From: Warburgia ugandensis
Taxonomy: Eukaryota; Streptophyta; Magnoliopsida; Canellales; Canellaceae
Length of the DNA: 64,000 nt
Direction of reading: 5' to 3'
NCBI GenBank assembly: GCA_035236585.1
Contig: CP141135.1
Location: forward strand, 72,703,057 to 72,767,056
This document shows positions 2,380 to 60,302 of the stretch, piece by piece. The notes below the pieces were generated by a model, which searched no databases, was not told the DNA's origin, and saw nothing but the letters and a program-made list of their open reading frames with translations. Made by a program: the position numbers and the translations under genes. Every line of letters starts with the position of its first letter. Position 1 is the stretch's first letter.

Positions 2380-3540
2380 ACTAGGACAAAAAAAGGTTAC
2401 AAAGGTTACTACAGATGGGATGCTAATAACACGAGAAATGATAAACTAAAGCTCTTTAAATAAGCTTCAAAGTGGGCTTCCTTTAATCTCACCAGATGTC
2501 TTATTTAAGCACATATTTTGGTTAACTACCTTTGACCAATAAAATGCACTAACCACTTGTGTGGGTTAAATGGAACATGTGTCATCATGATAAGTAACCT
2601 CCTTTGAGGCCTAGTTAGAATTCTTTTTTTCTTGAATGATAGACACACACTATGCACAATCTCAAACCCTAGTGCCGAACAACACTATGCACAGTTAGTG
2701 CCAAACAACATGGTGCCTCTCTTCGCTATCCTTGGTCGGTGGTTCTAGATAACACTTTTCCTTATTGGGGAGATTTCAAGTACATTTAAGAATTAGGACA
2801 GTAGTTTCTAATTAGTTAGTCCACTTTTATTCCTATATTGGTGTTTGCTTACCAAGTTGTAAAATCTTACACAATCACAGTTTTACAAATCCTAACCATT
2901 ATCTTTTGAACATCTTAATTAACCATGCTCGTGCATGGTCCTAGTAATTGTTGTTTTGGACGTGAAAATGGATATAAAATCTTGACCATTCAAAGGTATC
3001 GGATGCTGCGCGCATGAGATTTTGAGGGTGTTTTCCATCTAACTATAATCCCGCAAGATCGACAGTTCAGATCACAGAAAATCTGGGGCCTTCTCGTCCA
3101 ATTTTAGCTGCCCATTCAACTTGTACGTTTAGTAGAGCTAGCCCCAGATCTTGCAGTCTCCTTTCATTCGCATTGACCACGTAAAGTTGGACTACTCGTA
3201 GAAAAATTCCAATTGGACGAGCAATTCGTTAAGAGTAAAATTGTTGGTGTTAAAATGGTTCAGAGTCACTTTTGATAATCTACCGCTCATCCTACGAACA
3301 AGTAGTGTGAACGAACTTCTCTCCCGTAACCTCCTTCTGTTGACACATCCAGACCTGTTTCGAGAACGACCCGTGGACGACGTGCAATATTTAACTCATT
3401 TTCGATTGGGCCACCTATGTAATATCAATCATCCAAATCCATCCATTGATGACCCAGATCGGTAAAAATCAATCATCGCGAATATTTCTGATCGTTCGAT
3501 AAAAATATTTTGACATAAGGGTATTTTTCCTGACCGTTGC
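2374..3540. other. No gene recognised
   Basis: AT-rich intergenic sequence. Small open frames near 3241-3465 have no recognisable domain, no start context and no splice partners, so I do not call a gene. Confidence 0.45.
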
Positions 3541-3639
3541 TCTTCAACCACCAAAGTAGGGCTACAGATCAAGGGTCTTGATCATGCTATCATGATCTCT
3601 GAAGTGGATAAATAGGCAATGGAGTTCCTTATATGGAGT

Positions 3640-11995: not shown

Positions 11996-13260
11996 TTTTT
12001 TCATTCGAGCTTTTTTGAGTTTTTGGCATAATTCAACTTTAAGACATAAAAGGCTTTCCACGTAGGATTCTTTTCCCTTAAAAATTAATTTACATCCATT
12101 TCCTAACAACCGAACGCCCTAATTTTAATAATCGCAAGTGATCCAATAGACGAGATTTTTGGACCATAAACCATGTAAATCATGAACAACGTTGTGAGTG
12201 GTCTTGATTTTCCAAAATATGGACCTACATAGAGAAAATTTTGTCCAATACCACATGGTACTTGCATGGCCTCGAGAATCGAAAGAATTAGCTAGACATC
12301 TATGACTCTGGTAAAGAAAGGTAAAATTGGGACCCTGATTCTTCTTGATCAATCCCATTCGTCTTGTGGGGGCTGTCTCGTAGAGACACCAACGAGAACT
12401 CTTCTGCATCGGACGGTCCTTCATAGCTGATTGTTTTTAGCTGTAGAATTTATTTTTGAACATTCTTGGTGGTAAATATTATACCTTTAGAAGGATAAAA
12501 ATATTGTACCTTTAGAATGATAATGTATTTGATGGATCCAGAAGACCTTTTGAGGCATGACCTACATAAAGAGGGGCCAAGAAGATGAGTGCTGCGGCTC
12601 TCCCAAAATTTGAGCTTCACTTGCATAACTGAGTTTAAATAGTCAAATCAACCATTTGATCAATTATAGTCGTTACCATTGGGTCCCAAGTGTAGACAAG
12701 TATGTATAATAATGGCCGTTGATCTTGGAGACCGTCCCGAGTGGTTTGACAAGACGCCATGCCTTCCATCCATGGTTTAGCTATTGAATATCTTTCCGTT
12801 TTAATCATCCATTAACAGCCGCAAAATAAAGGCCTAGAATTATCATCGAAGTAATACGAGATGGATGGTCTCGATCATATGCTTGGAATCATTCAATCAT
12901 CAATCAAGTCCTACTGGATGGACGGTTTTGATCATAGAAAAGTGTGGGGACTCACTTCTATATGTGCCTTTCCGTTCATAAGTCAAACATATGAAGCTAG
13001 TCCCACCTCTGGTTGATCCCACCCGGTCATTTGATTTCTACTACTTTCTTCTTAGCAAAAGTACATGACAGGCCAGATGAACGGGTCAGATCAACCAAAA
13101 GATGGATCCCATAGCGAAAAAAATCCATAAAGGACAAAATCAAGTTAGTGACCTAACTTGCGCACGTGCGTGGACACACAAACGCCTATCTGTACAAGAA
13201 ACCAAAATCTGATAATTGCTAAACTAAGCGCCGTTAAGGCACTTCCGTACAAATAACAGG
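11996..13260. other. No gene recognised
   Basis: Intergenic sequence between the LINE and the p23 promoter. It contains many short phrases of the kind gatgaacgggtc(a/c)gatca, common in degenerate non-coding repeats. The frame at 12125-12424 (-) has no recognisable domain. Confidence 0.45.
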
Positions 13261-17953: not shown

Positions 17954-20900
17954 TCAGCAATCTGGGAGTTTCATTGTCACTTCCGGTTGTGGCCGTAGGG
18001 AGAAAACCATCTCTTTCGTCTTTCCGAAATACACCTGTTATTTGAAGGCTAATTAGCCTAATGTTTTATAGAACTAGTTCACCGTCACGTAGAATTGTAA
18101 GGGAAGCACCAAAAATTACCTGATCTAACGAGTTTCTCAGCTTACTCTCCATTTCTTCTATCATTCTCCCCAAGTTACAGAGGTGTCCCTCTGCAACGGA
18201 AAGGTCTACGCTCATCTGCAAGAATAGGTGAATCCTAAATTACCCATTGTGAGGAAGATACTATCATCAATTGATATCACATGCTGCCACCAACGTCAGA
18301 CTTTGACTAATTGTAAGGATTATGACAAAACAAAAAAGTGAAACACTAAAAAGCAACTTTATTTTCCCGAGTAAAGTTTCTACTGTTTGTTGTCCAAAAT
18401 GAAAGAATTTATCCGAGTAAAATCTGTGCATCATCAAATTAACACTAGGCAGATAACCTTTTTTGTTAGTGGTTTAATACCAGGTAAGCGACTCCTTTAA
18501 ATTTATAGAGGCAATTCACTCATAAACATGCCCGTCTACGGGGGATACAGCTACATGGAAGAAGCACAATAGCTCAAACAGCATAGCTACATTCATAGAC
18601 AACCATATGGAAGGGGCCTGACATTCATTAATTTCTGTTACCATGGTATTGCAATGACATTCTTGTGTACGAGCACTACCCTAGAAAAAGAAGAAGAAGA
18701 AAGCATGCGAGTGCAATTAATCAGGCTAGAGATAAATCAGTCAGGTTAGTTAACAACCAGAAGGGAGTCGGAATTACAAGCCTTGTGCATATGCCTAATC
18801 TAAAGTCAGTTCTTTGAAAGTCTATCATGTAATAGTAACTGAAGCAGAAAAACATGACTGTATTTTATGTTACTATTGTCAGCCTCAACACAGATGCATT
18901 ACCACATCTTTTAGAACACGGATTGAGTGATGCAACTAACTTCTTACTAATTCAGGAGCATCAGAGTTTTCTTATTGAGTTGATAGGGAAAATTTTGCAT
19001 AGATGAGAACTGCACCTAGGCAATTCCTTGTTAAGTAGGAAGTATTAGCTGGTGAGAGACACAGCCCAAAACTTCATTAGTTGCTATATGGTCGCATGGG
19101 AATATATTAAGCTTCTGAAGTTACAGTTCAATGCCATTTTGTCAAATACTTTCGAAATGACACGTGACTGTATTTGCTGAAGGACAGTTATACGGCTATT
19201 CTTGTACTTAATATCATGTAATCGTTTATCCTCAGGTTATTTTATCTATTGTAAGTCAACAGTTCGTCATACATTATTATACTATTCCTTAGTACCTGCA
19301 TCAAGCATAAGAATGTACCACGGACAAGTAACAAAAGGGGTCCAACTTTCAGAAGAAGAAGAAAACAAGGAGACCAGCACCATGCCAGATCTTCTCTCGA
19401 GAGCAAGCATCAAAAACACAAATAGAAAAACAAAACATGGAAAAGTTCTTAGATACAAAAATTTATCGCACATGTAGGAATCTGACAACTAAGGTGACAA
19501 TTTAACATTCAAATCTTTGACCATGCCATGTATAAAGTTATAAACCACAACAAAGCTGACACCTCGATCAAGGTGGAGCAAAACTGCAGTGACTAATGGC
19601 TTTTGATTCAAGCATCTTCCAAATCCTATGATAAGATAAGCATGCCTGAAAAAGTAGTCAATATTAAGTTTTTGAAGTGTATATGATGTTTATAAAAACT
19701 TTGGGACTAAATGAAGCCATGGTATTTAATAGAGTGGAATGGAGGAATAAGATACATGTGGCCGACCCCTAATTGGGATAAGGTCTTGATGATGATGATG
19801 ATGATGATATGATGTTTATAAAGATTGACTCAATAACGCAATTTAGAAGGGCCATACCATTTTAGTTTCTGATCCATGCGTGACCATGGAGCTGATGACT
19901 GTTTATATCAGAGAGGAAGCAACATCTGTCGCCACTTTAATGTATCTACTTAACCCTGGAAACTTATCAACTTATTCCTTGTCTTATTTTAAACTTCAGT
20001 GGCCCCTTAGGCAACAATCTAATGCATTTCATTTACTTGAAACCAATCATAAAAATAAATCTGGAAACTGCAGATAAAATCTTTACGAATGGTCACTTAT
20101 AACATTATCACATTAGTGGATAGAGCTAGAACAAGTCGGAGATAGTTGATCCTACTACAACAGTTTGATCTTGCTACAACAATCAATAATAATCCAAGTG
20201 AACAACAAAACAGTACATAAAGATCATCATCATCATCATAAAGACCTTATCCCAATTAGGGTTCGGCAAAACAGTACATAAAGATCCAAGCCATATTTCA
20301 ACCATCATTGAAGGGGGGTACCTGTCTCCTGATAGATCCCGACAAATTGAAGTTGCCTGATGACTTCTCACTTGTGGTCAATGACAGCATCACAGTACTG
20401 GTTAAGCAGTAATGACCTGCTCCCTCTTCCTCAGGCCCCACCTAGTAAGAAAACAAAATATTAATTAATCATGACAGAAACATGATAGAACTATTTTCAT
20501 TCAGATGGAATTCTTAGGCAACAAAGCAGATGTGGTGAATATCCATTTATCTGGATAACATGAATAGCATCCCACGCACCTTGCAGACACCCTCTTCGAC
20601 CATGCGCTGTCTTTGAACCATCTTCATATGCAGCAACAATAACATATCAATGCACTGTATAGCAATATTGTTTTGACAGAGAGATTCCACGCAGTATAAA
20701 AACTGACCTTTTTTAATTAAAAAGCAGGCTACAAAGCATTCATTATCATCTTCCCACATGTATACTGATGAAATGCCTCCTTCATAATACCTAGAAATGC
20801 ATTTGTGTAAAGTATTGCTATTACTTCTTCAGAAACAAGAAAGCTTCCTTTCAACTTTGCAAGATGGCATTTCTTGCACGCTAACTAGATAAAGAAGATA

Positions 20901-23900
20901 TATAGAATAATAATTGAATATATTGCCAACATAAGAAAAAGATACAAAAGACCATATGAATATAGTGTAGGACAAGGGAAGCAAAGGACCTCACTGGTCA
21001 CGATAAATTGCAAAGATATCATTTGCTTCAACTTCAAGTTTCCTCAACTCCTCTGAAGGGTATAGTGCATCTTCCAAGGGAGGATAATATTTGTTTGACC
21101 AAGGTGATCTACAAAGGAAAAGAGCAAGTGAAAGACTACAATATCTGAATTCAGTTCCTAAGAAAGAATAGAGACAGAACATAAACAAAATATCTAATAT
21201 CAGAGACAATATTTGAGAATATTGACATACCTTCACATTTTAAGAAGAAAACAGAAACATATATTCTAGCATTGACTTAGCTCTTACCTATATGAATCAG
21301 CATCTCGGTTGTATTCACAGAGAACGAACTCTTTTCCAGACTCCAAGTCGCTTAAAATCTGTTGTTGGTCAAGAAAAGATTTAAAAGCACTCAATAGTGC
21401 TAAGAAAATGATAATACCTTTACTTTCTATGATCATATGGAGAACATACTACATTGTTGAAGAACTTTTAAAACCAATAATTTACTAAAAGTAGTTTCCA
21501 GCAATAAATTATTGATAAACAAATAATAAATGAAAATTTCGAACCATATCCAGCTGTATGTAATTCAATAAAAAAAAATCAGAAGCATGTCACAAGTAGG
21601 ATGAATTATACGACACACATATAAACAAACTGAATATGAAAGAAGAAGCTGTTGTACTTGGTGAGTAGCCCTTGAAACAGATCTTACTTGCCAACAGGGT
21701 GTGGACATAGCTGAATTGCTGCACGCTAATGAGACATATTCTCAACAGAGCTATGATGCCTCAGGTGCCCAATGCACCCCATTAAAGTAAACACATGCAT
21801 TGCATATGAAGAATTTGTCTTTAACTGGTCCAACCAAGCAATAAATAGACTCATTGCCACTTTCCGCCATTTGATTTCTATTTAGTAAAATTGTATTTTT
21901 CCTACTACCTTTATATTTTACTCTCAGAAGTACGTTATAATCCAGAATCAAGATACTTTCTGGAATCTTATGTAAACTCTTATCTACAATGTTACAACAT
22001 ACAATTAACAGGGAAGACATGTATCCACCACTCTCAATTGTTCTTCTTAAACAATGGAGTAACTAATCACCCTACTTACAATGTATAATTTACATATAAC
22101 TTCATTTCTTAGACTGGCATCAGCAGCTCTCCTCAGAAAAGAAAACACATCTTATTAAATAAGCACAAAACCTAATACCACACTCCATATAAGAAAATAT
22201 CATAATTAAAATAATACAATCCACACAGCCCATATCATGACGAGGATATGAAAACTAAAGTTCGAATTTCTAAACAAATCCATTAGTGACATTCAGAACC
22301 CCAAGGAATCAAAGAGGCTCTTAACTGTAAATAGACAGTGTAGAAAGAGACAGAAAAGCTGCATGCTAATGAGATATCTTGTCCCTAGAGCTTTGCTGCC
22401 TTTGATGGATCATACAGCTGATCAGAACAAACATGTTCACAGAATGGAAAGAATTTGTTTAAACTGGACCAACCAAGCAATGAATACACCAATCAGATCT
22501 ATAGCAATGACGGTGCCTACCCTGCAACAGAAGAGAATGTTTAATTTCTTTCCTCCTCTCCATTTTATTTCCATTTAGTAAAAAGAGTGTTCCTCCTCTT
22601 ACCTTTATACTTGACACTGGGCAGCCCGGTGCACGAAGCTCCTGCCTATGCGGGGTCCGGGGAAAGGGCGGACCACAAGGGCCTAAAGTACACAGCCTTA
22701 CCTTGCATTTTGCAAGAGGCTGTTTCCACGCCTTGAACCCGTGACATCAAGGTCACGCAACGACAACTTTTACAGTTGCGCCAAGGCTCTCCTTCAAGAC
22801 ATAGCCCTACAAGTGCTAAAACAATTTCAGATGAAACTTTGTTGGAGCTGGGTGTACTGTTGCTTGAAATTATGTATACATGAAATGACTCGTCATCAAT
22901 GGAAGCATTAAAATCACATCAGTTTAGTAACACCACAAAGGAAATGTGGTTTTGACAAATATCTGGACCTCAAAGTTTCCAAACAAAGAACAGTAAAGTA
23001 TTATGTGTGAATCGAAGCTTGTCAATTATGTTATGGAAGTAACTCTTGGACCATTCCGTTCTAGTAAGAAATTACAACATAAACTGCAACAGAACATTAC
23101 AGTCTGCATTCACATCATTCTGAAATTCCAGAATGCTGTGACTATTTCAGTCCTTCGATAATACATTTTTAAGATCCCCAATATGTTCAAAGTTAGTACT
23201 AGTAGCCACTAAGGGCCTCTTTGGCAGAAAAAAAAAACAAAAAAACAGCCCAAAGCCAATATGAACTTCAATAACGAAAGCCTCTCTTCACCAAATACCT
23301 TTCACACCTAATGTAGCCTTTTGCCAACAACCTTTCTTTCAAAATCCCCTTAGTGAACCTAACCAAAGTCCAGGAACAGCTACAAAGGCTTCAAAGATGG
23401 TAGATTGAAGTATTAAGAAATCACAAAAAACCTTTTTTAGTCGTTGATAACTCTGAAAAAGAAAGACTGCCTATCTTTTCTTTCATCTTGGAGGAAATAC
23501 CATCAGGTAGAACTAATTTGACACCCTCGGGTAACATCCGTGGTTTACCTTTTTCCCTTTTGATTCTAATACAAGAGTAAATTACATAAAAAGCAATATG
23601 AACATCAGCTATATAAACATACCCATGAAAAAGAAAAATTCCAAAGGCGAAAAACATACAGGTAGCAACCACAGAAATGCACAAAAACCAGCCAAAAGTA
23701 AGAAATTAAATAACGAGAAAAGCAAAGCCCAGAAAGCTAAAAACAACAAAGATAGAAAATTGCGTTACCTGGGCAGTGATTCGCATCGAAAGCAGTAACA
23801 AGAAAACAACCATCCAGATCATTGACAACAAGAGGGTGACCCACCTCAATATCCACAAACAAGGATTCATCAAGCTGAGGGAACTGTTGACACTAAGAAA

Positions 23901-25012
23901 CATATTATAATCCAAAAGCAAGATGCATCCAGAACTTTACGTTATAATCCAAAACCAAGACACCATGCAGAACTTACATATCAACCAAGATACCATCCAG
24001 AACTTTACATACATTATTGTCTAGTGTATTACAACATATGAGCCACTCTTTTGACTGTTCCTTGGAGACACGGTTGAGAAGTGCCCATTTTTCTTGATGT
24101 GGAAGCCATACTAATAAGGGTGTTGTGTTCGGTTTAAAAGGCATGGTTTTCTATGGTTGTAATTTCCTAGAGAAAGCGAATATCCATCACTCTCAATTGT
24201 TCTTCTCAACAATGCAATTACTTAACGAGCCTGAGAAATGCAATTTTACATAGGCATGAAGAGTTTTCCACACAAAAGAAACTTAGATCTTTACTAATAA
24301 GCACAGCATTCAAAACTGCACTCGATATGCACAATCATCATAACTAAACGTAAACTAACGTGGAATGCGTAGCAGGACCTAAACATTTAGGAAAACAAAA
24401 GGTTCAATTTCGCTACAGAAATTATCTACAACAAAGTAAAATCAACTGATGACATTCAAAACCAGAAGGAATCGAAAGTAGCTCTCTTCCTAACAATACA
24501 AAACCACATCAATCAAAAGCAGGCCAACTGGAATCTGAACATATCACTTACATGCACCACTGCAAAAACCAACGCAATCAACACAAATCCACAAAGACCC
24601 CTAACAAAAGCTGCAGAAGAGAAATATGCAAGATCTACTGGAGAAGGAACTACTTCCAGCAATCAACTCCAAGAAACTACAACGATCACAGATTGATTCA
24701 CGATCTAGACACTGCACACCCTTACAGAACTAAAAATCAAAGGGTTAAAAACCAGTGCCTCAAGCATTTGTTAAAGAGACACAAGGATCGGTTGCAGAAG
24801 GTGAAAAATCAGTAAAAGAAACCATACGAACACAAGAGAAGAGCAGATCAAGAAAGGAAAAGGTAGAGGAGAGAAGAAATTTCACCTCGAGAGGTTGATC
24901 GACTTGAGAGAGAAGATCGGAAGTGTTAAGGAAGGAGAGAGAGAAGAGCAGAGAGAGCTGTCTCTGAATCATTTGGAGAAATTCTCCTCATCAAATCCAT
25001 GGCTGCTTCCAT
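17954..25012 (-). CDS. CPB: F-actin-capping protein subunit beta (possibly disrupted)
   Basis: Eight exons on the minus strand: 25012..24886, 21358..21288, 21108..20995, 20790..20708, 20621..20551, 20441..20322, 18215..18120 and 18034..17954. Family landmarks are clear: SPWSNKYYPPLEDALYP, ELRKLEVEANDIFAIYRDQ, YYEGGISSVYMWEDDNE, HGRRGC, MIEEMESKLRNSLDQVYFGK, ending KLPDC. The protein pairs with the alpha subunit to cap actin barbed ends in the cytoplasm. Two faults stand out. In exon 1 the conserved start (MEAAMDLMRRISPNDSETAL) runs into TAA where the family has Gln, and 2 nt are missing just after it, so the following DLLSQVDQPLE is in another frame. The donor after exon 5 reads CAG|AT, not CAG|GT. 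A downstream ATG (24972) would give an intact frame with an altered N-terminus (about 240 aa against about 254 expected). A GT 9 nt upstream of the bad donor would keep the frame and lose three residues. It could be a recent pseudogene, a tolerated variant or an assembly error. Confidence 0.85.
19697..19806 (+). mobile_element. Short RTE 3'-end insertion with 16-bp target duplication
   Basis: 110 bp of RTE 3' terminus (ctttgggactaaatgaagcc to gaccc ctaattgggataagg, then (GAT)n) is flanked by perfect copies of atatgatgtttataaa at 19681-19696 and 19807-19822. It lies in capping-protein intron 6, on the strand opposite the gene. Confidence 0.92.
20226..20266 (-). mobile_element. 41-bp RTE tail insertion with 20-bp target duplication
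   Basis: Only the tail (ATC)n plus aagaccttatcccaattagg and a few more bases is present. It is flanked by identical caaaacagtacataaagatc at 20206-20225 and 20267-20286. It lies in the capping-protein intron between exons 6 and 7. Confidence 0.93.
21690..22620. repeat. Diverged direct repeats within capping-protein intron 1
   Basis: The segment near 21715-21925 (gctaatgagac, aagaatttgt, ccaaccaagcaat, ttatatttt-like end) recurs diverged at about 22360-22618. The adjacent stretch 21935-22320 (gttataatcca, tccaccactctcaattgttc, ttaaataagcaca, gacattcagaaccc) recurs at about 23935-24490. The intron has grown by local duplication. Confidence 0.65.
22619..22794 (-). mobile_element. Au-family SINE
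   Basis: Near full-length copy. On the minus strand it starts with a tRNA-like head (gagccttggcgcaactg, B-box region ggttcaagg), then cagcctcttgcaaaatgcaa and ggtccgccctttccc, and ends accgggctgccc. It lies inside capping-protein intron 1. Confidence 0.85.
23935..24490. repeat. Second copy of the intron-1 duplication
   Basis: Diverged copy of about 21935-22320, sharing gttataatccaaaaccaaga, atccatcactctcaattgtt and gacattcaaaaccagaagga-like blocks in the same order. A private insertion separates two of the blocks (about 24050-24170). Confidence 0.6.
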
Positions 25013-25019
25013 TTTCAGA

Positions 25020-25023
<4 letters not shown>

Positions 25024-25052
<29 letters not shown>
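25024..25052. repeat. (GA)n in capping-protein 5' leader
   Basis: About 14 GA units (CT on the gene strand) lie immediately upstream of the capping-protein ATG at 25012. Confidence 0.95.
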
Positions 25053-25056
<4 letters not shown>

Positions 25057-25842
25057 CTGTGAAGGGAATGGGATGGATGGGGGCGATTCTTCGGGCGCGT
25101 CGTTTCTTCCGAGTTAACGGAAAATGGCACGAGAAGTGCACTTGCTTTCTCAAGGAAGAGGCATATTTTTGGAACCATGGTTGTTATTAGTTTCCATTGG
25201 TATTTTTCTTTTCTTTTTTTTTTAATGAAAAATTATAAAGAGAAACACTTTGCTTGGTCAAAGAAGAAGTACACTTCTGAGCCTACATGTGGCAATTTCA
25301 TCCAAAAGACCATATTTTTGGAGCCTACCTTTGAATGTTTTGACTCAATTGTCTCATTATTCTAGATATAGATTATATAAGCATGTGGATCATTCTAGAC
25401 AATCATTCATGCCATATGATCTTTTACTTAGAAGCAAAGTTAAAGCAATAAGGCGAATAATTTTGATCATGCAAAGGTTGGCTCCAAAAAGTGACTGCTA
25501 GACTGCACCTCATAATATGTTTAGTTAAGCATTCCTCCATTTCAAAAGTTGGGAAAATATAAACCATTAATTTTGGTATCATAGCATTGTCAATGAAACA
25601 TCCAACATCCGATTGGCATGGGACCTCGGTCATGTAGCTTAGTGGTTAATGGTGTACAAGTTTATTAGTATGGATCAACACATTTTCATTTGGGACTACA
25701 AAATGTGCTTATTGAGTGGTTTTGCATGCTTTAGAAGGATATCTGAGCGGATAGAAGTGCGACGTCTAGATCACTTAATCAAAACGGTAGGTGGGTAAGC
25801 ATTACTTTGAGTGGGTTTCCACTAGAATTGTCTTAATAGAAA
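25053..25842. other. Upstream region of the capping-protein gene; no other gene
   Basis: Promoter-side sequence with AT-rich intergenic DNA. No domain-bearing frame was recognised. Confidence 0.45.
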
Positions 25843-26014
25843 GGGGACAGTCCCGGTGCACCTATGGGGGACGGGGTTTGGAGAAGGGGCGGACCATAAG
25901 TGTCTATAGTATGCAGTTTTACCTTGCATTTTTACAAGAGGCTATTTTTACCTCTTGAACCCGTGACCTTGAGGTCTTACAATCACAACTTTTACCATTA
26001 TGCCAAGGAATTTT
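25843..26014 (-). mobile_element. Au-family SINE, diverged
   Basis: Full-length layout on the minus strand: tRNA-like head with gtcacgggttcaag, then cctcttgt, gtccgcccctt and a terminus reading gcaccgggactgtcccc. It is older than most copies, judging by scattered substitutions. Confidence 0.78.
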
Positions 26015-34400: not shown

Positions 34401-37400
34401 CTGATGGAATCTTCAGATCACATCTGATGTTTACATTTCCAACAAAAATCATGCTAACTAATACCTAGACACCTTCTACCAGATGATGGTCCAGCATCTA
34501 CCACTGGATACCAAAATGAAGCAAAAAGGAGCTTTAAGAAAAACTTACCTGCCCGGTTGAAGAAACCCCCTTGTCTGTTCTACCACATCTTGTGTATCGT
34601 AACTCCTCCTTGTCACCAACCAAAAGTTTAGTCTTCTGAAGCGCCTTAAATATTTCAGACTGGATAAAAACCCAACTATATAAGACAGAAAGTGAAAACC
34701 CAAAATAGATTAATTGAAGTTAGAAAGTCCCAAACTGATGCTGGCCTGGCATTTTCAGTTCTTCATTTAAATAACGATCAATTACCTCTATCAAACCCTA
34801 ATAGAAAACTCCAAAACCAAATCACTAAAATTAGTGGAGGATATACATTCCTGTTGTTTCATGTTCCAAAGCAAAAAAATTTAATTGTAGAGAAATATTA
34901 AGGAGGGAGAAAAGCACCTCAACAGTTGGATCCATTTGCGCTTCTGAAGCAAAACCATAAAACCTGTAAACAAGGCAGACATCAATATGAAACCTTCACC
35001 TCATTCACTTATCCGTAACGAGGCAACAATTTCCTTCTTTAAAAACAGTGCTACTGAAACTGTACATATAATTTTACAACAAGGCTCAGAATTTGCATCA
35101 TAGGAGATCAAATATTTGCAACCTACTATTTGGCTTTAAATGCACAAGATATATCTAGTATCATTTGTGTTATCAACTTTTGTTAGACATGCAAAGGACA
35201 TATGGAGGTTTTTTTACAATTCTATATAATGGAACTTCTAGCAAGAGCAGAAAATGGCTAAGTATGCCACTCAAGTAAAAAGAGATCTTTGCGAGACTTA
35301 AGATTCAACTTCAATGATGCAATTCAAGCCCAATTGGATGATTTGTAGAAATCAATGGAGTTACTTACAAAATAAACTGCTAAGAAATATATACCTCTGA
35401 CCAAAGTACATGATTTTCAGGGCAACATATCTCTTGCCATGGTGGTCCATGGTTCTCAAGTTGCAACCTGTACCAAAGCAGAGAAAAATGCTTGCAGTTA
35501 CCATCAAGCTTACTGGTAAATATAAATACCCTAATGCATTGTAATCACTCATTATTTTGTTGATGCCATAGCATGAAATAGAAAACAAGGTAAAGAAATG
35601 ATGGGAGAAGATCCAAACATATTCCACCTGAACAGAAGCTCATATAAAGAAATCTGATCTCTGGTAATTCTAAATATGGAAGTGTTAGGTGAGGCTGAAA
35701 AGGTTAAGACTTGCTGGTTTCATCATCATCAAGACCTTATCCCAATTAGGGGTCGGCCACATGAATCTTATTCCTCCATTCCACTCTATTAAATACCATG
35801 GTTTCATTTAGTCCCAAAGTTTTTAAATCTTTCCTCACCACTTCTATCCACGTTCTTTTGGGCCTTCCCCTTGCCCTTTTAGAACCTTCAACTTGTATTG
35901 CCTCACTCCTTCTAACTGGTGCCGTTGGTGGCCTCCTTTGAACATGTCCAAACCATCTAAGTCTAATCTCCCTCATCTTGTTACCTATTGGTGCTATCCC
36001 TAAATTTCCTCTAATATTTTCATTTCTAATTCTATCCTTTCTTGTCTTACCACTCATCCATCTCAACATCCTCATTTCTGCGACACTCAGCCTATGAGTA
36101 TGATGTTCCTTAACTGCCCAACACTCTGATCCATAGAGCATGGCCGGCCTAATAGCCATCCTATAGAATTTTCCCTTTAGTTTGAGTGGCACCCGCCGAT
36201 CACATAAAACACCCGATGCACATCTCCATTTGTTCCAACCTGCTTGGATTCTCTGGGTGACCTCCCTCTCAATCTCTCCACTCTCATGGATCAATGATCC
36301 TAAGTATTGGAAGTGGTCTCTCATGGGGACCTCTTGGTTATTAATCTTGACTGGTACTCCACTCCTACTCTCCTTACTAAAATTACATTCCATATATTCT
36401 GTCTTAGTTCGGCTAATTTTAAATCCTTCCGATTCTAATGCTTTTCTCCATAACTCTAGCTTTATGTTTACACCCTCCCTTGTCTCATCAAGTAGGACTA
36501 TATCGTCTGCAAATAGCATGCACTAGGGAATCTCCTCACGCAGATGTTTTGTTAACTCATCTATAACTAATGTGAAAAGGTATGGACTCAATGCTGATCC
36601 TTGGTGCAATCCGACAGTGACAGGAAAATCACCAGTCACGCCACTAATGGTCTTAACATTTGTTACTGCTCCCTCATACATATCTTTAATTATGTCTATA
36701 TACCCCTGAGAGTAGGAGTGGCACTAATGCACCGGATCCCATCAGAACTCCGCAGTTAAGCGTGCTTGGGCGAGAGTAGTATTAGGATGGGTGACCTCTT
36801 GGGAAGTCCTCGTATTGCACCCCTCGTTTTAACTCCACCAATGCCGGTCCCAAGCCCGGATAAAAAAGGAGGAGGGTCTTGTGTCAGGTGCCAACCGGCA
36901 AGGGGGAAGTTGAAGATGATTCTATTATTTCTTTCTTACAAATGAATATGCATTTGTATATTAGTTTGTGAGAGAGAAATGAAAATCATCTCCAGCTTCT
37001 TAAAAAATGGCAACCCTTGTTCAGGTAGCCAGCCGACAATGGGGAAGTTGAAGATGATTCTATTATTTCTTTCTTACAAATAAATATGCATTTGCATATT
37101 AGTTTGTGAGGAAGAAATGAAAATCATCTTCAGCTTCTTAAAATATGGCCACCCTTGCGTCAGGTAGCCAGCCGGCAAGGGTGAAGCTGAAGATGATTTT
37201 AATGAAATTCATCTTCAGCTTTTAAACTATGGCAACCCCAACATGACATGAATCGAAGACTTGCTGGTTTATGTCACTTAAGTTGTTTTATAAGTTTTGA
37301 GGCATGAATTAGAACTTCTAGGCAGCAAGTTTAGCATCATAGACAGAGGTTAGAGCATTTGCCAGCCATATCACCTATTAATTCCTAATAATACAAAAGA

Positions 37401-43017: not shown

Positions 43018-44743
43018 CTACCTATAATTGGATAAAGATTAAAAGTGAAGATTTAGTAGAATAAAAGATAAGGATAAATTTTGGTTAACTACGGAAAAGC
43101 TTCCGTTGACTTGGTAAACTCAAGTGGGGCTGGAAATTGATAAGCGCACGAATTGGATTATATTTGTGGAGGTGGGAAGTAGGGTAGTACTGGGACTGTC
43201 AAAGTTGGTTGCTCTCCTAGTCTTGATCCACCGAAGATGGCCCACAGGAAACTTACTCAGCCAAAAGCATCCTACATTTGGCATGAAAAGCCCCATTTAT
43301 CTCATTTTTTCAACTTTAGAGCACTACTGAACAAAAAAACATAAATAAAAAATTTATATTATTCAGGAATTATGAAGGCCGTGTTTTTTTAAGTTGCATT
43401 AAATTTGTTATTTTTACAAAGTTTCTAATGGCTCTTTTCTTCTGATAAAAAATAAACTTTTTAAGTGCTACAATTATCCAACTGACATACCATTTGATCT
43501 CCAAGTCATTGAAAACTAGAGAAACTAAATGAATAGGTCAGATAATCCAAACGTGGGCTCCTTTCAGGACAAATGTATGACACTTATGGCTAAGGTCCAT
43601 TCAAGGCCTTTCGCCTAGCATTCATTTGTACATATTTTTATTGGGTTAGCACAATTTTGGTTGCTGAAGATGTAAGGCACTTCCTTCCCTTTTGATTTGG
43701 TTAAGGGCAAGAAGGGATTCAAATTATTCACATAATAGTTCGTAGTCACGTGCTCTAATCCTCTGAGCTCTAAGCCTAACCCATGTCAGCCATATTTTGG
43801 TTTAAGAAGATGGGAAAGTGCATTTCTCTAGCGCCCACGACCCCACTTATAATGAGGGGGCTAAAGACACTGATCTACATGGAGGTTCAATAATTATAAT
43901 TTGTCTGTGAAAATTAAATCCAATTAAACTTTCAAACCTTGTAGCCAGCAGATTTCACATTTTCATTGGGTTTCTTTAGTTTGTACTCAGAAGGTCGACT
44001 GAAACATTAGCTGGACACCTGCATATCTTATTTCTTGGCAGTGTTGGCCGGCTTAGTGGACTTAAAACCGGCCCTTTTCATCTTTGAAAGTGATTTCCGC
44101 AATGGAGAGTCAAACTACACATTGAATAGGCTTCACATTGAGTTGGCCTTGTCCCAGGAATCTCTTTGGAATTTCAGCCGCTCGGTTTGTGGGGCACGCA
44201 TGGACGGCTAAAACACTGGAAATGAGTAATTTCTTTTCTTTTTTTAAAATATGGTTTCTCTCTCTAATATCATCATCGTCGTCAAGACTTTATCTCGGTG
44301 ATGATGAAATGTTCTATCCTGATTAAGGGTTAGGATTATTTCTTAGTGAAGGACCATGCACTTAGAGTGCACGACATAGCGTGCATAGTATCTATCACAG
44401 TTACAAAAATCTCCGAAGAATTGAAATTTCCAAAATTTTCCCCAGAGTTTGGGCATATTTGCCAAATTAAATATAAATTGATGAAATTAAACTCAAGTTT
44501 TGAAGAATATTTTATCAAATTCTCAGATATTTATCTATAGATCTAGTTAGAATATACACTAAAATATTAAAATTCAGTTCCTCATAATTTGTTTTCTTTA
44601 TTTTTCCATCTCTTTCAAAAAAATTTACAATTTTTTGCTCGCGACTTATTCCTAAATCCGAACTTTGTAACTGTGATATTGACTATTAGTAGATCCATGC
44701 ATGTCCTCACGTAATAACTTTATAAATGATTCAGTGTTCATGT
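43018..44743. other. No gene recognised
   Basis: Intergenic sequence upstream of the epimerase. A short RTE-tail-like phrase (atcatcatcgtcgtcaagac) occurs near 44268-44290 but cannot be bounded. Other open frames have no domain. Confidence 0.4.
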
Positions 44744-44758
44744 CTATGTAATATGATT

Positions 44759-44933
44759 GAAGGGGAGCCTTGGTGCAACGGTAAAAGTTGTCGTCATGTG
44801 ACCTTGAGGTCACCGATCCAAGGCATGGAAACAGCCTATTACAAATGCAAATGTTGTGTACTTTAAGCCCTTGTAGTCTGCCCCTTTCCTAGACCCTGCA
44901 GGAGCTTCGTGTGCACTGAGACTGCCCTTTTAC
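44759..44933 (+). mobile_element. Au-family SINE with 15-bp target duplication
   Basis: Full-length layout from ggggagccttggtgcaacgg to actgccctttt, flanked by perfect ctatgtaatatgatt at 44744-44758 and 44934-44948. Confidence 0.92.
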
Positions 44934-45283
44934 CTATGTAATATGATTCATTTGTTTCTAGTGGAGTAACTTGGAATGCTCGACCACTGCTTTTGGATCC
45001 CCACTTAGTTCTAAAGACGAAGTATTAAGTTCTTATTCATACTCAATACAGAAGCGACTGCCCACCATTTTGCAACATAGTTTGTTTGCTCATGTTTGTA
45101 GAAGAATTTTTTTATTAAAATCTCTAAAAACTATCCGACAATTCTTTTAATTCTATATCCTTTCCATTCCATTCCCTCTACATATTCAAATTAGAAGGTG
45201 AATAAGAGGCTTGATTGAGTGTGCTTAGGCAGCGTTGGAACGCTGTTTGTAGATTATTTTTATTTTTATTTTTAAGAAATTCA

Positions 45284-45458
45284 GGACAGCCCCGATGAAC
45301 AAAGCTCCCGCATATGTAAAGTCTAGGGAAGAGGCGAACCACAAGGGTCAATAGTAGGTAGTCTTATCTTACATTTTACAAGAGGCTGTTTACATACTTT
45401 GAACCAGTGACCTCAAGGTCACACGATGACAACTCTAGTATTACACCAAGACTCCCTT
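45284..45458 (-). mobile_element. Au-family SINE, full-length layout
   Basis: Minus-strand copy from the tRNA-like head (accttgaggtcactggttca) to the ggggctgtcc terminus. Moderately diverged. Confidence 0.82.
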
Positions 45459-45775
45459 CTTTTTTTCTAATAAATGTCTGATAAAAATATATTTGAATGC
45501 ACTGTTTGTTTCTACTTCAGAGAAGATATGATTTGAAAGATGCGTTTGGATATGCCAATATTTTTCTGAAGAAATAGTATCCCAACGCAGACTTAGTGTT
45601 GATTGTTGTCCATTTGCTTGGATTGTTAATCTTTCAAAAGCCTTTTTCCTACTGTGGGAAGGCCACAAAGGTGACTGCATATAAAGAGAAAACACCCTCC
45701 TTTTCTCTTTGTTGAATGCAATGATTCATTAATCAAATAAAGCAGTACATTAGATGATGTAATACCTTGAGAGAA

Positions 45776-45926
45776 GTGGAGCCTTGGCGCAACGTAAAAG
45801 TTGTAGTCATGTCAAAACAGCCTCTTACACAAATACAAGGTAAAGCTGCCTACCGTAGGCCCTTGTGGCCCTCCCCTTTCCCAAACTCCACATAGGAGGG
45901 AGCTTCATGCACCGAAACTGCCCTTT
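45776..45926 (+). mobile_element. Au-family SINE with deletion in the head
   Basis: gtggagccttggcgcaacgt at the start and gaaactgcccttta at the end. About 20 nt of the B-box region are absent. Confidence 0.8.
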
Positions 45927-46538
45927 ATATAATACCCTAAGCATTATACCAAGTGCATCCACACTATCAAGTTGAGCACACTGAGATGTAAAACCCTTTT
46001 TGCTAAGACATCTTCAACCCTACGGGCTTTCCCAGATAGACACTCTCCTGTTCAGAGGGAGGCATACGAAACTTACAAAGGCTGTTTGGCACATGAATCA
46101 TAAGTTGTGGATAAACTTATCAATGGATGGTGACTTTAAACCCTAGCTATGGAAGGCCTAAACGTCATTATAATTATCCAGACATAGATAAAAATCGTCC
46201 TCAAACCTTTGGCGGGATGTCGTTTAAGAATTCTACCCATGATTAATGCTGCAAATATCAAGGCAAAACAAAATATTATCCATAGATAGCTTATTCTAGA
46301 TATTGCTAGCCCATTGCCAAACAGCCCCATATTTTAAGGTTTTGATACAATCAAGAATGGCAGCATTTGGTCTTGAGTGAAGCCCAATGGGTATATTTCC
46401 TATTTGTACACCCTTTTTCCTTTGACTTCTCTCTTAATTATGGTCATGAGGTTTGCATTACGCCAATCTTGAGATTCAGCTGAAAGGGACTATTCTGATG
46501 ACATGTACAGGGTCTTTTTTCTTATTACAATATCTGAA

Positions 46539-46716
46539 GGGGAGCTTTGGCACAATTGTAGAGTTGTATCGTATGCAATCTTAAGGTCAAGGGTTCAAGT
46601 TGGGAAACAGCCTCTTACAAAATGCAGGGTAAGGCTGTGCACTATTGACCCCTGTGATCCGCCCCTTCTCCAGACCCAGCATATACGGAAGCTTTGTGGA
46701 CCGGGGCTGCCCTTTT
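46539..46716 (+). mobile_element. Au-family SINE with target duplication
   Basis: Full-length layout. Flanks are tacaatatctgaa (left) and tacagtatctgaa (right), a 13-bp duplication with one difference. Confidence 0.88.
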
Positions 46717-47949
46717 CTGACTACAGTATCTGAATCTGCAGCATTTCGGTTTAGTAGATTATGTTATTTTCTTCACTTTCATGTTGTACAGCTTGCTTTA
46801 CATGTTATCCTTCATGAAAGATGAGAGACAGTCTCCAACTGGTGTCCACACAGAGTATGCTTTCCATGCCTTTGCAGTCTGGCTCAAGTTGGTCCCCCCC
46901 GCTGATTATTTTTCTTAGTAAAGCTTTCTTGAAGAATGTTTACATTTTGCCTGGGCCTCCTTTCAGCCAGAGCTTTGAAACCTTCTTCATCTTAAGCAAT
47001 AATTTTCTTTTACACCTCACAAACTGAAATGGGAGGTACAGCAATATTTATACCCCTAGTTCTATATAAGAAAAGATGAAAAGTGCAACCTAGGTTGGAT
47101 TGTTTTGGCACCTTGGACTTTTAATTTAGACGTTCTGTAAGGCTGATTTCCTGAGGATTCAATTATCTAGTGTAGGTATTAGGACTTTTGAGGAGCTATA
47201 GCTGTTTGATTAAAACTGTAGGAAGCCTGCAATGTCTACCAGTATTGTCTAAATCTATATCCATGATATGCATTTCTAGAGATCCAGTTGCCTTCTTATT
47301 CTTAAATTTGTGAGTATAAGATAAGGCCTTGTTGTCTCAAGCCTAGAACCTTAGGTTTTAGAACACCAGCCTATCCACCTTGCTGATAATCTCAAACATT
47401 ATTGTTTCTCTGCAGCATTCTTAAAAGGACACGGGCGGTTCCTAGATGTATATTTAGTTAGTATTATGCCTTGAACCCGTGACCTCAAGGTTACACGACT
47501 AACCATTGTGCCAAGGTTGCGTACTATAGGCCCTTGTGGTCCACCCCTTCCCCAGACCTGGCATACACAGAAGCTTCGTACACCAGGGCTGCCCTTTTTT
47601 TACATTTGACCTGTGAGTACCTTGAAGCTTGGGTTCTAGAACACCAGCCTCTCCACCTTGCATCTGATTATCTCAAATATTATAGTTTCTTTGCAGCATT
47701 CTTTACCACCAATTTGTCATGGTTGGGCTGAAAGATAAAAGATTGCAAATACTAAGTTATGGAATACTTCTTAATAGGAAAGATTATTACCTATCAGTCA
47801 CTCAAGTAACTTAAAGGAAGCTAGCTCTAGACTTTATCCTCGGCCTGTGCTTTATGAACCAGTAGACATGCTATGAATTTTGGAAAATGAACTACATCTT
47901 CTCTCATATCCCATGGACATTCATTTCCTTGTGTCTTAATGCAAAATCC
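46717..47949. other. No intact gene; duplicated flanks around a composite SINE
   Basis: A segment of about 90 bp (tagaacaccagcct, then ccaccttgc, then tctcaaa, then ttgcagcattctt) occurs at about 47336-47424 and again at about 47622-47703, on either side of the composite SINE. Small frames near 46821-47027 lack domains. Confidence 0.6.
47467..47599. mobile_element. Composite Au SINE, 5' half inverted
   Basis: 47467-47515 is the SINE head on the minus strand (gccttgaacccgtgacctca to attgtgccaagg). 47516-47599 is the SINE 3' half on the plus strand (gcgtactataggcccttgtg to cagggctgccctttttt). The halves meet where a normal copy would be continuous in one direction. Confidence 0.78.
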
Positions 47950-48696
47950 TGCAAGTCCAAGGTGATATCCGCGGAAAATATTACTGCAGCATTCCATGGA
48001 AGTTAGAAAACAGTATTTGTTATTGCAAAATCATCCACTAAAGCACAGGTTCTCCTTGGGGTACTTTGACTTATTTTACAAATGATACCAAGACAGTTTT
48101 TGAGGCCTGACCATGTAATTCCTAACTCTTTTTTTTGTCCATCCTCATGTTGCCATGGCCATTTTGAAGCTTGCAAGAAACTTACTATTGGCCTTCGTAG
48201 GCATTGGAACATGGTCTGGGTGGAGTTGTTCTGCATGTCGATGATGTCGGAGCTATTCTGGAACTGAAGGTAAATTTTCTCCCCAAGTAATTCTTATTCA
48301 TTTTGCTCCTCTATATTAGTAATTGAATACTTGTGGGAGGGTTAACCCGGTTATGATTTCCCCTTTCTATTCAAGATGTCCTTTGAACAAACTCGCCGTG
48401 ATACAGTCAAAATGTTAGCAATCTAATATCTCTAAATAGGTTATTCTGCATCATTCTTCTCACTACTCGTTCACTGGGTGTTGAGACCATAATGATCACT
48501 TCATCTCATAGTGGTTAACATTGTCAGGATTATTTTCATAGAAGGGATGAAGAGAGGAATCTTTTAACCTTTGACTAAGGCCACTGTAACACAAGTCCGA
48601 ATGGCAGGAACAGGAGATCGTGTATGGGGGATCTCTGCAGTCTCGTGAGACCTGGGGAAGGTCTTCTGGTCTGTCTTCACTTATCTATTTTAAAAA

Positions 48697-48828
48697 GGGT
48701 AGCTCGGGTACACTAAGCTCCCCCCTATGCAAGGTCTGGGGGAGGAGCGGACTATAAAGATCTATAGTATGCTGTCTTACCTTGCATTTATGCAAGAGAC
48801 TGTTTCCACATGCGCGAAGGCTCCCCTT
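48697..48828 (-). mobile_element. Au-family SINE, shortened, with 13-bp target duplication
   Basis: Flanked by cttatctatttta at 48680-48692 and 48834-48846. Part of the tRNA-like head is missing. It inserted about 25 bp after the third exon block of the broken DHQ-synthase-like gene. Confidence 0.87.
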
Positions 48829-49385
48829 CTTCTCTTATCTATTTTATGAATAGTTATTTATGCTTGCATGGCATGAGCAAGTTGGTAAAATTCAAGTCAC
48901 GTTGTTGAGATAATTATTTTTTATGTCTCATAAGCTTTCCTTAATGAGTTCCCATAGGAATGGCTGATATGAATGATTATCGTTTTGTGGTAATTGCTTT
49001 TGCAGGTTGGTTCCTTTGCTAGAGGACTTTTCTTGTCCATTCAGAATGTTTGGAGCCAAATTACACTGCTACCCTGCCTTTCCGGGTTAATGCGATGAGC
49101 TTTTGTATTTCTAGCGGAAAATTGTTGTTTTTCTCCATTGCCAATTTTTCATGAACTTGAGCCATCCAAGTTAATGTGGTCCATTTTCATCCATTTTTCT
49201 TGGCAGCACTTCAGTACATCTGCTGTATGAATTGCAGAAATTTTTTAACACAGAACTTCCATCTCTATCAAAAAGTTTTGAGACTAAAATGATTTAATGC
49301 TGTTTACGAGGTAGTAAAATGATGTATACTTATGCTAGTTTACCCAAGTTTCCAATTTGAGCTATATCAATGACCAAAAAGAATA

Positions 49386-49560
49386 GAGGCTACGCTTGTA
49401 CGAAGCTCCCACCTATGCAGGGTCTGAAGAAGGGGCAGACCGCAAGGGTCAATAGTACGCAGCCTTACCTTGCATTTTGCAAGAGGTTGTTTCCACGCCT
49501 TGAACCCATGACTTCAAGGTCACACGATGAAAACTCTACTGTTGTGCCAAGGCTCCCCTC
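49386..49560 (-). mobile_element. Au-family SINE, full-length layout
   Basis: Minus-strand copy ending in ttgtgccaaggctcccctc at its head side, with an eroded 3' terminus (gaggctacgcttgtacgaag). Confidence 0.83.
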
Positions 49561-49856
49561 CACTCCACTAATAAGCATGTGGCTGTTTTATTTCATTTCT
49601 GACATTCAACCTTTTTATGCTCTGAGGATATTTGCTGTCACTACTCAAATTACTTTGCTGCTTACAAAATGCCATTGCAGTTACAGGACTCGGACTACAA
49701 AGCTACACATAGCATCATTTTGCAGAATGCAGAAACTGTTGGTTTAGTCTGTCCTTGTGAAGGTTTGTTCCATTTGTGAACTCCGTTTCTGTTCTAGAGT
49801 GTTTTTCTATGTTCTTTATCTCTTGCTGTTTATTTACCTCCCAATCGAAGCTCTCA

Positions 49857-49972
49857 GAAAAGGAGTAGACCACAAGGGTCAATAGTACATAGCCTTATTT
49901 TACATTTTACAAGAGGCTATTTTCACGCCTTGAACCTGTGACTTCAAGGTCACACTACGACAACTCTCCCCT
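49857..49972 (-). mobile_element. Au-family SINE, 3'-truncated, copy A
   Basis: Head and middle of the SINE inside the first 209-bp tandem unit. The SINE 3' end is replaced by other sequence. Confidence 0.8.
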
Positions 49973-50066
49973 TCACTTCACTAGTAAGTATAGTGTCACG
50001 GGGTTGCACTTTCACCTATGCTAAACCCGTTCGGCAGTTTATTTACCTCCCAATTAAAGCTCTCAG

Positions 50067-50181
50067 AAAAGGAGCATACCACAAGGGTCAATAGTACATA
50101 GCCTTATCTTGCATTTTACAAGAGGCTATTTTTACGCCTTGAACCTGTGACTTCAAGGTCACACTACAACAACTCTCCCCT
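50067..50181 (-). mobile_element. Au-family SINE, 3'-truncated, copy B
   Basis: Same truncated SINE in the second 209-bp tandem unit. It arose by duplication of copy A or the reverse, not by a new insertion. Confidence 0.8.
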
Positions 50182-50202
50182 TCACTTCACTAGTAAGTAT
50201 AG

Positions 50203-50732
50203 TGTCAGGGGGTTGCACTTTTACCTATGCTAAACCCGTGCGGCACTTGTGCACAATTCTTTTTTCGGAGCACAAGTCAGCCTTTAACCCCAAACTCTCA
50301 CTTGCTAGGGCTAAACTCACTCAAGCACTCAAGCAATAAGAGGAACTCAAGAGAACTCAGAAAGAAACTCTCCTAATGTATTCACTTTAGCTGAACTGTG
50401 AGCTGATTACAAGTGATGAACTTATACCTATTTATACTTGCTCTCCCCTATCTACCTCCTCAATGGATGGTCCAGATTATTCCAAATGTCTACAATCCAA
50501 TGGTTATGGACTCCTCTAGAACTCTTTCTAGAGAACTCTACACACTTCTCTAACCCTCTACTTTTTTACATATTTAAAGAGACTTCTAAAAACCGGGCCT
50601 TCTAGATTCAGGCCAAGTTCCATGGACCTTCCCAGGCTGGCTTGATTCCCTAAGGCCAGCTCCACGTCCCAAGTGAGCCTTCTTTAGAGGCTGCAAGCTT
50701 GGTCACGGGCCTTGCAGTGCAAGTCCGTGACA
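50203..50732. mobile_element. Solo LTR (about 530 bp)
   Basis: Begins TGTCA and ends TGACA, with atag directly before (50199-50202) and after (50733-50736), consistent with a 4-5-bp target duplication. No internal retroelement region is present, so this is the remnant left after recombination between two LTRs. The superfamily (Copia or Gypsy) cannot be told from one LTR. The first about 43 bp also occur at 49994-50036 through the local tandem duplication. Age cannot be dated without a partner LTR. Confidence 0.75.
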
Positions 50733-57440: not shown

Positions 57441-57559
57441 GGCAGCCCCGTATACAGGGTTCAGCGCAGGGGCAGACCACAAGGATCAATATTATGTCTT
57501 AAACTAGTGACCTTAAGGTCACATGATGACAACTCTACTGTTGCGCAAAGGCTCTCCTT
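57441..57559 (-). mobile_element. Au-family SINE, internally shortened, with 15-bp target duplication
   Basis: Flanked by perfect ttgtgagtgttagga at 57409-57423 and 57561-57575. A few extra A-rich bases between the left duplicate and the SINE terminus are its 3' tail. Confidence 0.9.
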
Positions 57560-58229
57560 CTTGTGAGTGTTAGGATTCAGTTCTGAAAAATAATCTGAAG
57601 ACCAAACCAGAAGAAGATAAGATATGAATATGAGAACAAGATGATCAGAAAGTTGAAAACTTATTAGTCCAAGCGTGTCAAGCTGCAGTCCTTTGCTTAT
57701 ACACTTGAAAGTGGCAAGGGTCAAGATAATTGATCATCTGCTAGTGCATTACAAAGGATGAGCGCAACACCCTACCAAAAGTTGATTACATATCATGTGC
57801 TTGCTCTCTTCAAATGGCCCAGCTCTCTCCAGACTGATCTGAACTAAAGATTTTCTTTGATGGTATAGATGCACTAGTGACCTACCATAGGCGAGGTTCC
57901 TTCTTGCTTTCCTACGCTAGCAGGCCTTCTTCCCACGTTTTCATCCCTTCCATCAAAGTCATTTTCCACCTAAGGTATCTCTACAATCATAACTGTACTT
58001 CATCTGTGTCACTTCTGGTTGTGCTTCTGTTCATAAAACCATGGACTCCAAGCAGTGTATTTCAGGTAGATGCCCTGTTGCCTGCGACCAACTGCCTTAG
58101 ACAATATTGTTGGCAGAAGTGGTGAGATTATGTGGTATTTTTGTGAATGAGAACATAATTTTCCCTATAATGGAAACTCGGTTCAACCTTGCAGTCTCAA
58201 TAATTTCCCCTACAATGTACTTACTGCTA

Positions 58230-58407
58230 GGGCAGCCCCAGTGCACAAAGTTCCCACCTATACAGGATTCAGGTAAAGGGCGGACTACAAGAGTCTATAG
58301 TACACAGTTGTACCTTGCATTTTTGTAAGAGGTTATTTTCACGCCTTGAACCCATGATCTCAAGGTCACACGACGACAACTTTTACCATTGCAGCAAAGC
58401 TTCCCTT
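58230..58407 (-). mobile_element. Au-family SINE inserted in a kinase exon
   Basis: Full-length layout, flanked by perfect ccctacaatgtactt at 58208-58222 and 58408-58422. The duplicated target is itself kinase coding sequence (PYNVL), so the exon continues on the other side. Confidence 0.92.
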
Positions 58408-60145: not shown

Positions 60146-60302
60146 AATCATCATCATCAAGAACTTATCCTAATTAGGAGTTGGCCACATGAATCTTATT
60201 CCTCCATTCTCCTCTATTATTAATTAATTTGGCTTTATTTAGTCTCAAAGTTTTTAAATCTTTTTTCACCACTTCTATCCATGTTCTTTTGGCCATTCCC
60301 TT
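60146..60302 (-). mobile_element. 157-bp RTE 3'-end insertion with 17-bp target duplication
   Basis: RTE 3' terminus (aacttatcctaattaggagt onward to tatccatgttcttttggcca) flanked by aaaaatgtggtgctttt (60129-60145) and aaaaatatggtgctttt (60303-60319). It lies in the last intron of the broken kinase. Confidence 0.9.

Follow-up and report, generated by a model that had tools for sequence, protein, structure and literature searches.

The stretch of DNA analysed here, referred to below as the window, comprises 64,000 nucleotides of Warburgia ugandensis (C10:72703057-72767056 of a 1.12-Gb assembly with 14 contigs). It contains an insertion consisting, from left to right, of nt 2581-3571 of an RTE-type LINE on the minus strand, followed by an inverted unit made up of 5S rRNA nt 17-119, a 7-nt 5S trailer and nt 1-425 of the LINE (Table 1). 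Both LINE arms and the 5S piece are enclosed by one 15-bp target-site duplication (TSD). The two arms lie in opposite orientation, the 5' arm being inverted relative to the 3' arm, LINE nt 426-2580 are absent between them, and the pre-5S sequence is joined base-to-base to LINE nt 1. The locus thereby combines the marks of a twin-primed insertion (a single TSD, an inverted 5' arm, an internal deletion and microhomology at both joins) with that of a small-RNA/LINE chimera, namely a 5S 3' end joined to a LINE inside the same TSD.

Table 1. Features of the insertion, in window coordinates.
Feature	Position	Strand	Remarks
Left target-site duplication AAGACTTGCTGGTTT	35706..35720	+	15 bp, 100% repeat within the window
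LINE (RTE-type) nt 2581-3571	35721..36711	-	End of RT region, C-terminal part, 3' end with TTGATGATGATG tail
LINE stretch GAGAGTAGGAGTGG (LINE sense)	36359..36372	-	Probable source of the inner-joint patch
Inner joint, GAGA + 10 nt GTAGGAGTGG	36708..36721	+	GAGA (36708-36711) common to LINE 3' arm
5S rRNA nt 17-119	36721..36823	+	97% to 5S rDNA on contig C4
5S 3' trailer TCGTTTT	36824..36830	+	Ends inside the T-run behind the 5S gene
Type-P1 twister ribozyme-like motif	36826..36880	+	RF03160, 45.9 bits, E 4.9e-9; gathering cut-off 67.2
LINE nt 1-425, 5' UTR with 138-bp tandem repeat	36831..37255	+	39 other host places, 94-98% (best 40 of 3534 candidates scored)
Candidate second priming site	37256..37261	+	Target AAGACT against LINE nt 426-431 AAAACT, 5/6
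Right target-site duplication AAGACTTGCTGGTTT	37256..37270	+	Same perfect 15-bp direct repeat

A sequence-only reading of the window had already described the perfect duplication at both outer edges, the LINE 3' half on the minus strand and the joining of the 5S 3' end to LINE 5' sequence in LINE sense, all of which we recovered. Its plus-strand layout of 5S nt ~17-120 running into LINE 5' sequence also holds, with the 5S part now divided into nt 17-119 and the 7-nt trailer. The junction string that it gave exists, but its 'tcgtttt' is the 5S trailer and the joint reads ...CACCCCTCGTTTT|AACTCCACC...; that trailer, the twister-like LINE 5' end, a patch at the inner joint and a second chimera on contig C8 had been overlooked. 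Divergence from the source is similar among the parts, amounting to 7 of 991 columns in the 3' arm, 6 of 425 in the 5' arm and 2 of 110 sites in the 5S (positions 78 and 110), the 5S sites being counted where the window is unlike all three rDNA units read. When the joined flanks of the insertion were searched in the host assembly, they were present at this locus only, with no empty paralogue. As judged from its sequence, the structure is most likely the product of a single retrotransposition event, a twin-primed 5S/RTE chimera.

The LINE family and its 5' end

The 3' arm matches 39 other host places at 98-99% over query positions 1-991 or 2-991 (best 40 of 10559 candidates), and 29 of these 39 copies were taken for sequence comparison. 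The host genome also has LINE copies in normal order whose two ends lie about 3.6 kb from each other; one with both ends present, C4:25440090-25443660, provided the nucleotide numbering (about 3571 nt). The Pfam RVT_1 model scored 21.9 bits on the 3' arm, under its cut-off of 29.6, a search of solved structures with the RT fragment gave no match at E 0.001, and a Pfam search of one N-terminal LINE ORF piece gave no domain. The element is putatively an RTE, on the grounds of its tail and of its resemblance to RTE sequences. The tails read TTGATGATG(ATG)n and are of the plant RTE kind, (TTG)n or (TTGATG)n, close to the plant RTE tails listed in PMC3747384. Elsewhere in the window, the same type of LINE is present as an older, decayed copy at 9042-12012 on the minus strand, with no 5S before its 5' part (12012-9042), and further LINE 3' fragments lie at 1684-1990, 19693-19798 and 60148-60300; an Rfam scan of the whole window at the gathering threshold returned one 5S. 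Self-comparison also revealed many mutual repeat matches of about 65-300 bp, some of them in tandem, among the stretches 22600-26000, 44700-50250 and 57500-58400.

The 5' ends of 29 other copies were fetched. In 27 of them the match to the window starts at or within 4 nt of 36831, that is, at query positions 4-8 with LINE nt 1 at query 8; in L045 it starts at 16 and in L044 at 27. The upstream 40 nt vary from copy to copy among the 29, none of which carries a 5S, and LINE sequence runs on past nt 425 in all 21 copies readable in LINE orientation. For a TSD survey, 27 other copies were paired by both ends and 25 were readable (L044 and L056 were without a recognised 3' end). In 23 of the 25, both ends share a string of 11-23 nt of flank, tail letters possibly included; L039 and L054 gave no convincing TSD. 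The shared string borders directly on the AACTCC end in 22 copies, and in L045 on a start that is shorter by 8 nt; AACTCC is thus the most likely beginning of the LINE RNA. At G000:C5:59854500 (L040), a solo stretch of about 450 nt from the LINE 5' end, without any 3' part, lies between copies of the 13-nt repeat AGTATGTGCAATG. The 5' UTR repeats at window positions 36905-37138 form a long inverted structure resembling the plant miRNA precursor models MIR2646, MIR7533 and MIR6224, all well under their cut-offs.

The LINE 5' end also resembles a type-P1 twister ribozyme. Model alignments place the twister core and the U|A cut site where they are expected, and the expected cut falls between 36830 and 36831, exactly at the 5S/LINE junction and at the 5' end of 22 of the 27 LINE copies examined (25 readable). 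The match is stronger in copy L033 (49.4 bits, E 4.1e-10; cmscan, permissive threshold), and the model also matches the 5' ends of L085, L101 and the diverged copy L099. A genome-wide search listed 61 matches at 37.8-55.7 bits (best 62 of 44315 candidates), including the C8 chimera and not the window copy; none of the 61 exceeded the curated cut-off of 67.2, and RF03160 matched none of 14 control genomes. L099, 77-80% identical to the LINE where aligned, keeps helix P4 through a double change from CGG/CCG to CAG/CUG (G-C to A-U). The window copy has one G-to-A change within the twister core (ACTCCACC). Across the 29 copies, conservation is no higher in the core than in the remaining 5' UTR, variability being 1.8-4.7% in ribozyme columns against 1.2-1.7% elsewhere in the 5' UTR. 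No HDV-like ribozyme was found at the LINE end among 25 matches listed up to E 5, which did include twister. The twister cut site is U-A and stem P1 is dispensable, according to PMC6154101, and truncated yet competent twisters at the 5' ends of RTE elements are mentioned in PMC7761336 as work 'in preparation'. The LINE 5' end matches the type-P1 twister below the curated cut-off, and its self-cleavage is putative.

The 5S segment, its joints and a second chimera

The Rfam 5S model (RF00001, cmscan) covers 36708-36823 at 77.1 bits (E 1.4e-14). The 13 nt at 36708-36720 that it aligns as the 5S 5' end were rejected as such, being LINE sequence plus the small patch instead. Identity to host 5S rDNA, at 97%, spans 36721 (5S nt 17) through the trailer to 36830. 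With 36708-36830 as query, 39 other places were scored (best 40 of 2569), all on contig C4, with matches starting at 36720-36722 and ending at 36830. Three units read on C4 are 5S rDNA; two carry CACCCCTCGTTTTTAC after the 5S and the third CACCCCTCCTTTTTAC. As the window reads CACCCCTCGTTTT|AACTCC, four of the five trailer Ts were kept, and a Pol III primary transcript is expected to keep such Ts. The agreement of the trailer TCGTTTT with host tandem 5S rDNA up to the T-run points to pre-5S RNA, and not a Cassandra element, as most likely the template.

At the inner joint, all 29 other LINE copies read TGAGA|AACCCC on this strand and the window reads TGAGAGTAGGAGTGGCACTAATG, so that GAGA is counted as shared sequence; this microhomology is only 4 nt. 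The last G of the patch GTAGGAGTGG doubles as 5S nt 17. Positions 36708-36721 show a 14/14 complementary match to 36359-36372, where the LINE reads GAGAGTAGGAGTGG; this stretch is found in the intact copy L007 and is exact in 10 of 13 copies readable in that orientation. Of 5000 shuffled patches, one matched the reference LINE set over 14 nt and 404 did so over at least 10 nt, which makes a copied patch likely, though not certain if GAGA is discounted. The 10-nt patch was probably copied from LINE sense sequence, and it could have originated through a second template switch or through snap-back, templated end joining. At the outer joint, AAAACT follows LINE nt 425 in 12 of the 21 copies readable in LINE orientation and the other nine differ; the 5-of-6 match to the target would fit the need of priming by the second target strand, but is short.

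The first 27 nt of the LINE match 1852 host places at up to 2 mismatches. With up to 3 mismatches allowed, a host-genome search for the junction, which the sequence-only reading had put forward as the way to separate template switching from a 5S-headed family, returned a single locus. A gapped pattern, in which no more than 30 nt separate a 5S 3' end from LINE 5' sequence, found two loci and no control match, and a second, exact pattern (5S 3' end within 25 nt of the LINE) found the same two. The resulting 2 of about 1852 is an estimate that may miss decayed cases, since the 5S searches used other, exact patterns. No multicopy family with this 5S-LINE joint, as a 5S-derived SINE would form, was found; an exact T-arm + CCA pattern for a tRNA head at the LINE end had 0 matches in the host genome, and ARAGORN found no tRNA gene in 32 loci.

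The second locus (L085, G000:C8:77998050; also L087) carries a full-length 5S (100 bits) that is not inverted. The order there is 5S, trailer TACATTTT, AACTCCGCC and LINE sequence oriented like the 5S; a LINE 3' end lies about 3.6 kb downstream, with about 2 kb between unread. The bases flanking this chimera are adjacent to within a few nucleotides in related repeats (five compared; clearest in L093 and L094), so its 5S and LINE appear to have arrived together. No TSD was found around it, the best match being 9 nt. The 7 nt AGCTTTA before its 5S resemble rDNA spacer (AGTTTTA, AGATTTA), which speaks against a simple origin, as a plain 5S transcript would lack them. Its 5S variants and trailer differ from those of the window, and the identity of its LINE to L033 is 92%, as against 98% for the window 5' part; the C8 copy is therefore unlikely to be the source of the window insertion, and its joint is apparently a separate, independent case.

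How the 5S and LINE sequences may have come together

From the sequence we consider it probable that a twin-primed reverse transcriptase ran to the twister-made LINE 5' end and jumped end-to-end onto pre-5S RNA. The LINE RNA would have been cut by its own 5' twister, starting with 5'-OH AACUCC, and priming of its 3' end at the first nick would have given a cDNA that reaches back to nt 2581. A second cDNA would have started at nt 425, primed by the other target strand (...AGTCTT-3'); on arriving at nt 1 it would have fallen off the ribozyme-made end, and the enzyme would then have taken the pre-5S RNA 3' end (...CUCGUUUU) as its next template and copied to nt 17. Copying of a short LINE patch would have followed, either by another template switch or by templated end joining, and annealing at GAGA may then have brought the two cDNA ends together for sealing. 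The switch from the LINE 5' end to the 5S 3' end, as proposed by the sequence-only reading, fits best with the one TSD, the missing nt 426-2580 and the matches at the joins. That reading had made twin priming a later step of inversion; rather, the second primed cDNA itself would have run off and switched. Twin priming combined with an end-to-end jump accounts for all the joints.

The main alternative, which we regard as unlikely, though it would yield the same final sequence, is that RNA ligation came first, the 5'-OH LINE end being joined to the pre-5S 3' end by plant tRNA ligase or by the twister run backwards and the chimera being twin-primed afterwards. The clean end-to-end join at both loci fits ligation, and the 5'-OH left by a twister is what ligases require; for U6/L1, ligation reportedly comes first, to go by the title of Moldovan 2019. 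A Pol III transcript, on the other hand, normally ends in a 3'-OH and not a cyclic phosphate. Ligation would also recreate the U|A cut site next to the ribozyme and should thereby expose the RNA to renewed cutting, which favours the jump. Ligation or template switching is proposed for U6/L1 chimeras (PMC13174262), and retrozyme RNA that has been cut by its ribozyme is made circular in vitro by a plant tRNA ligase (PMC7761336).

It is improbable that the source LINE lay behind a 5S gene or a 5S-bearing repeat and that read-through RNA carried the 5S head. The C8 copy does show that a full-length 5S can directly precede the LINE, but it is unlike the window in its trailer, its 5S variants and its more distant LINE. 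The exact junction occurs once in the assembly, and the T-run and twister at the joint would end or cut a read-through RNA. Very little probability attaches to the 5S part being a piece of a Cassandra LTR, or a 5S insertion that is older and unrelated. The LTRs of Cassandra elements contain 5S sequence (PMC10853983; these retrotransposons are also covered in PMC7215508); here, no paired LTRs surround the 5S, which runs into rDNA trailer and LINE nt 1, and its scored matches are on C4, cover the trailer and, in the three units read, are 5S rDNA. An older insertion is opposed by the LINE sequence on both sides of the 5S, by the TSD that encloses it and by a 5S divergence like that of the LINE parts. 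The sequence-only reading had offered as an alternative an RTE lineage with a 5S-derived head as Pol III promoter; 5S-headed SINEs with RTE tails do exist, for example Ped-1 (PMC3747384), but with the 29 fetched ends free of 5S and differing in their flanks, and two 5S-adjoining places against 1852 LINE 5' ends, this has next to no credibility.

With the jump onto pre-5S RNA as the preferred reading, the twister would cut the 5S head from a chimeric transcript, which would explain the absence of a 5S-headed family; together with the T-run, which would stop Pol III, it would keep 5S heads from founding one. We predict that, as the twister would cut off the head whenever the chimera is transcribed, a 5S- or tRNA-headed RTE family could arise only after ribozyme loss, which is testable through the twister state across SINE and RTE families. 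We put forward as a conjecture, and a doubtful one, that the twister is the reason for the fusion site, its 5'-OH exposing LINE RNA to ligation with U-ended small RNAs. If this were true, ligation would proceed through tRNA ligase or the ribozyme's reverse reaction and the twister would take the heads off again one round later; RTE elements would sample Pol III RNA heads over and over, uninheritable until the ribozyme is lost, and ribozyme loss would be linked to SINE birth. Some known SINEs combine 5S or tRNA heads with RTE parts, their first gain of a head having so far only been deduced. In this one plant genome, two apparently separate nascent fusions are joined base-to-base at the same end, the one expected from the ribozyme, and the window insertion preserves one copying accident in fine detail.

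Comparison with known systems

Twin-primed, 5'-inverted LINE-1 insertions have reportedly been described by Ostertag and Kazazian, who are cited in PMC13174262. The present insertion shares with them the TSD, the inverted 5' arm, the internal deletion and the short matches at both joins, and it is unlike them in that copying of its inverted arm would have gone beyond the RNA 5' end and on to a second RNA. The reverse transcriptases of R2-type non-LTR elements run off an RNA 5' end and take the 3' end of another RNA without homology; unlike R2 template jumping, the insertion is a genomic fossil, with its joint at the end expected from a twister ribozyme. RTE 5' parts in SINEs are reportedly the subject of Kojima 2018. 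The 5S-headed SINEs, among them Ped-1 with a BovB tail and SINE3/AmnSINE1 with a CR1 tail (PMC3747384), likewise combine a 5S head with LINE parts; unlike these families, the joint described here was seen at one locus, and both its T-run and the ribozyme should prevent a family from forming.

No paper on a plant LINE/5S chimera was found by title or abstract, in literature short on subscription journals. Both 5S/LINE-1 chimeras and RTE twisters have been published, and their combination was not found in the literature searched. The twister-like motif at the LINE 5' end recalls the truncated twisters attributed to RTE elements in PMC7761336, where the statement concerned makes no mention of small-RNA fusion at the cut site. 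The sequence-only reading rightly pointed to U6-type LINE chimeras as known, and human 5S/LINE-1 chimeras have been reported already as well. Of the 27 human 5S/LINE-1 insertions described in PMC13174262, which are typically truncated and antisense, 20 have TSDs of 7-17 bp; the paper also cites both RTE-tRNA/5S SINE origins and Buzdin et al. 2003. As in the window, 5S and LINE were inserted together there, often within a TSD, and twin priming was proposed for the antisense cases. In those human insertions the 5S is typically truncated and antisense to the LINE, with the 5S start at the LINE joint; in the window, the 5S lies in sense and meets LINE nt 1 with its 3' end and trailer, the element is a plant RTE and the whole 5S-LINE unit forms the inverted arm.
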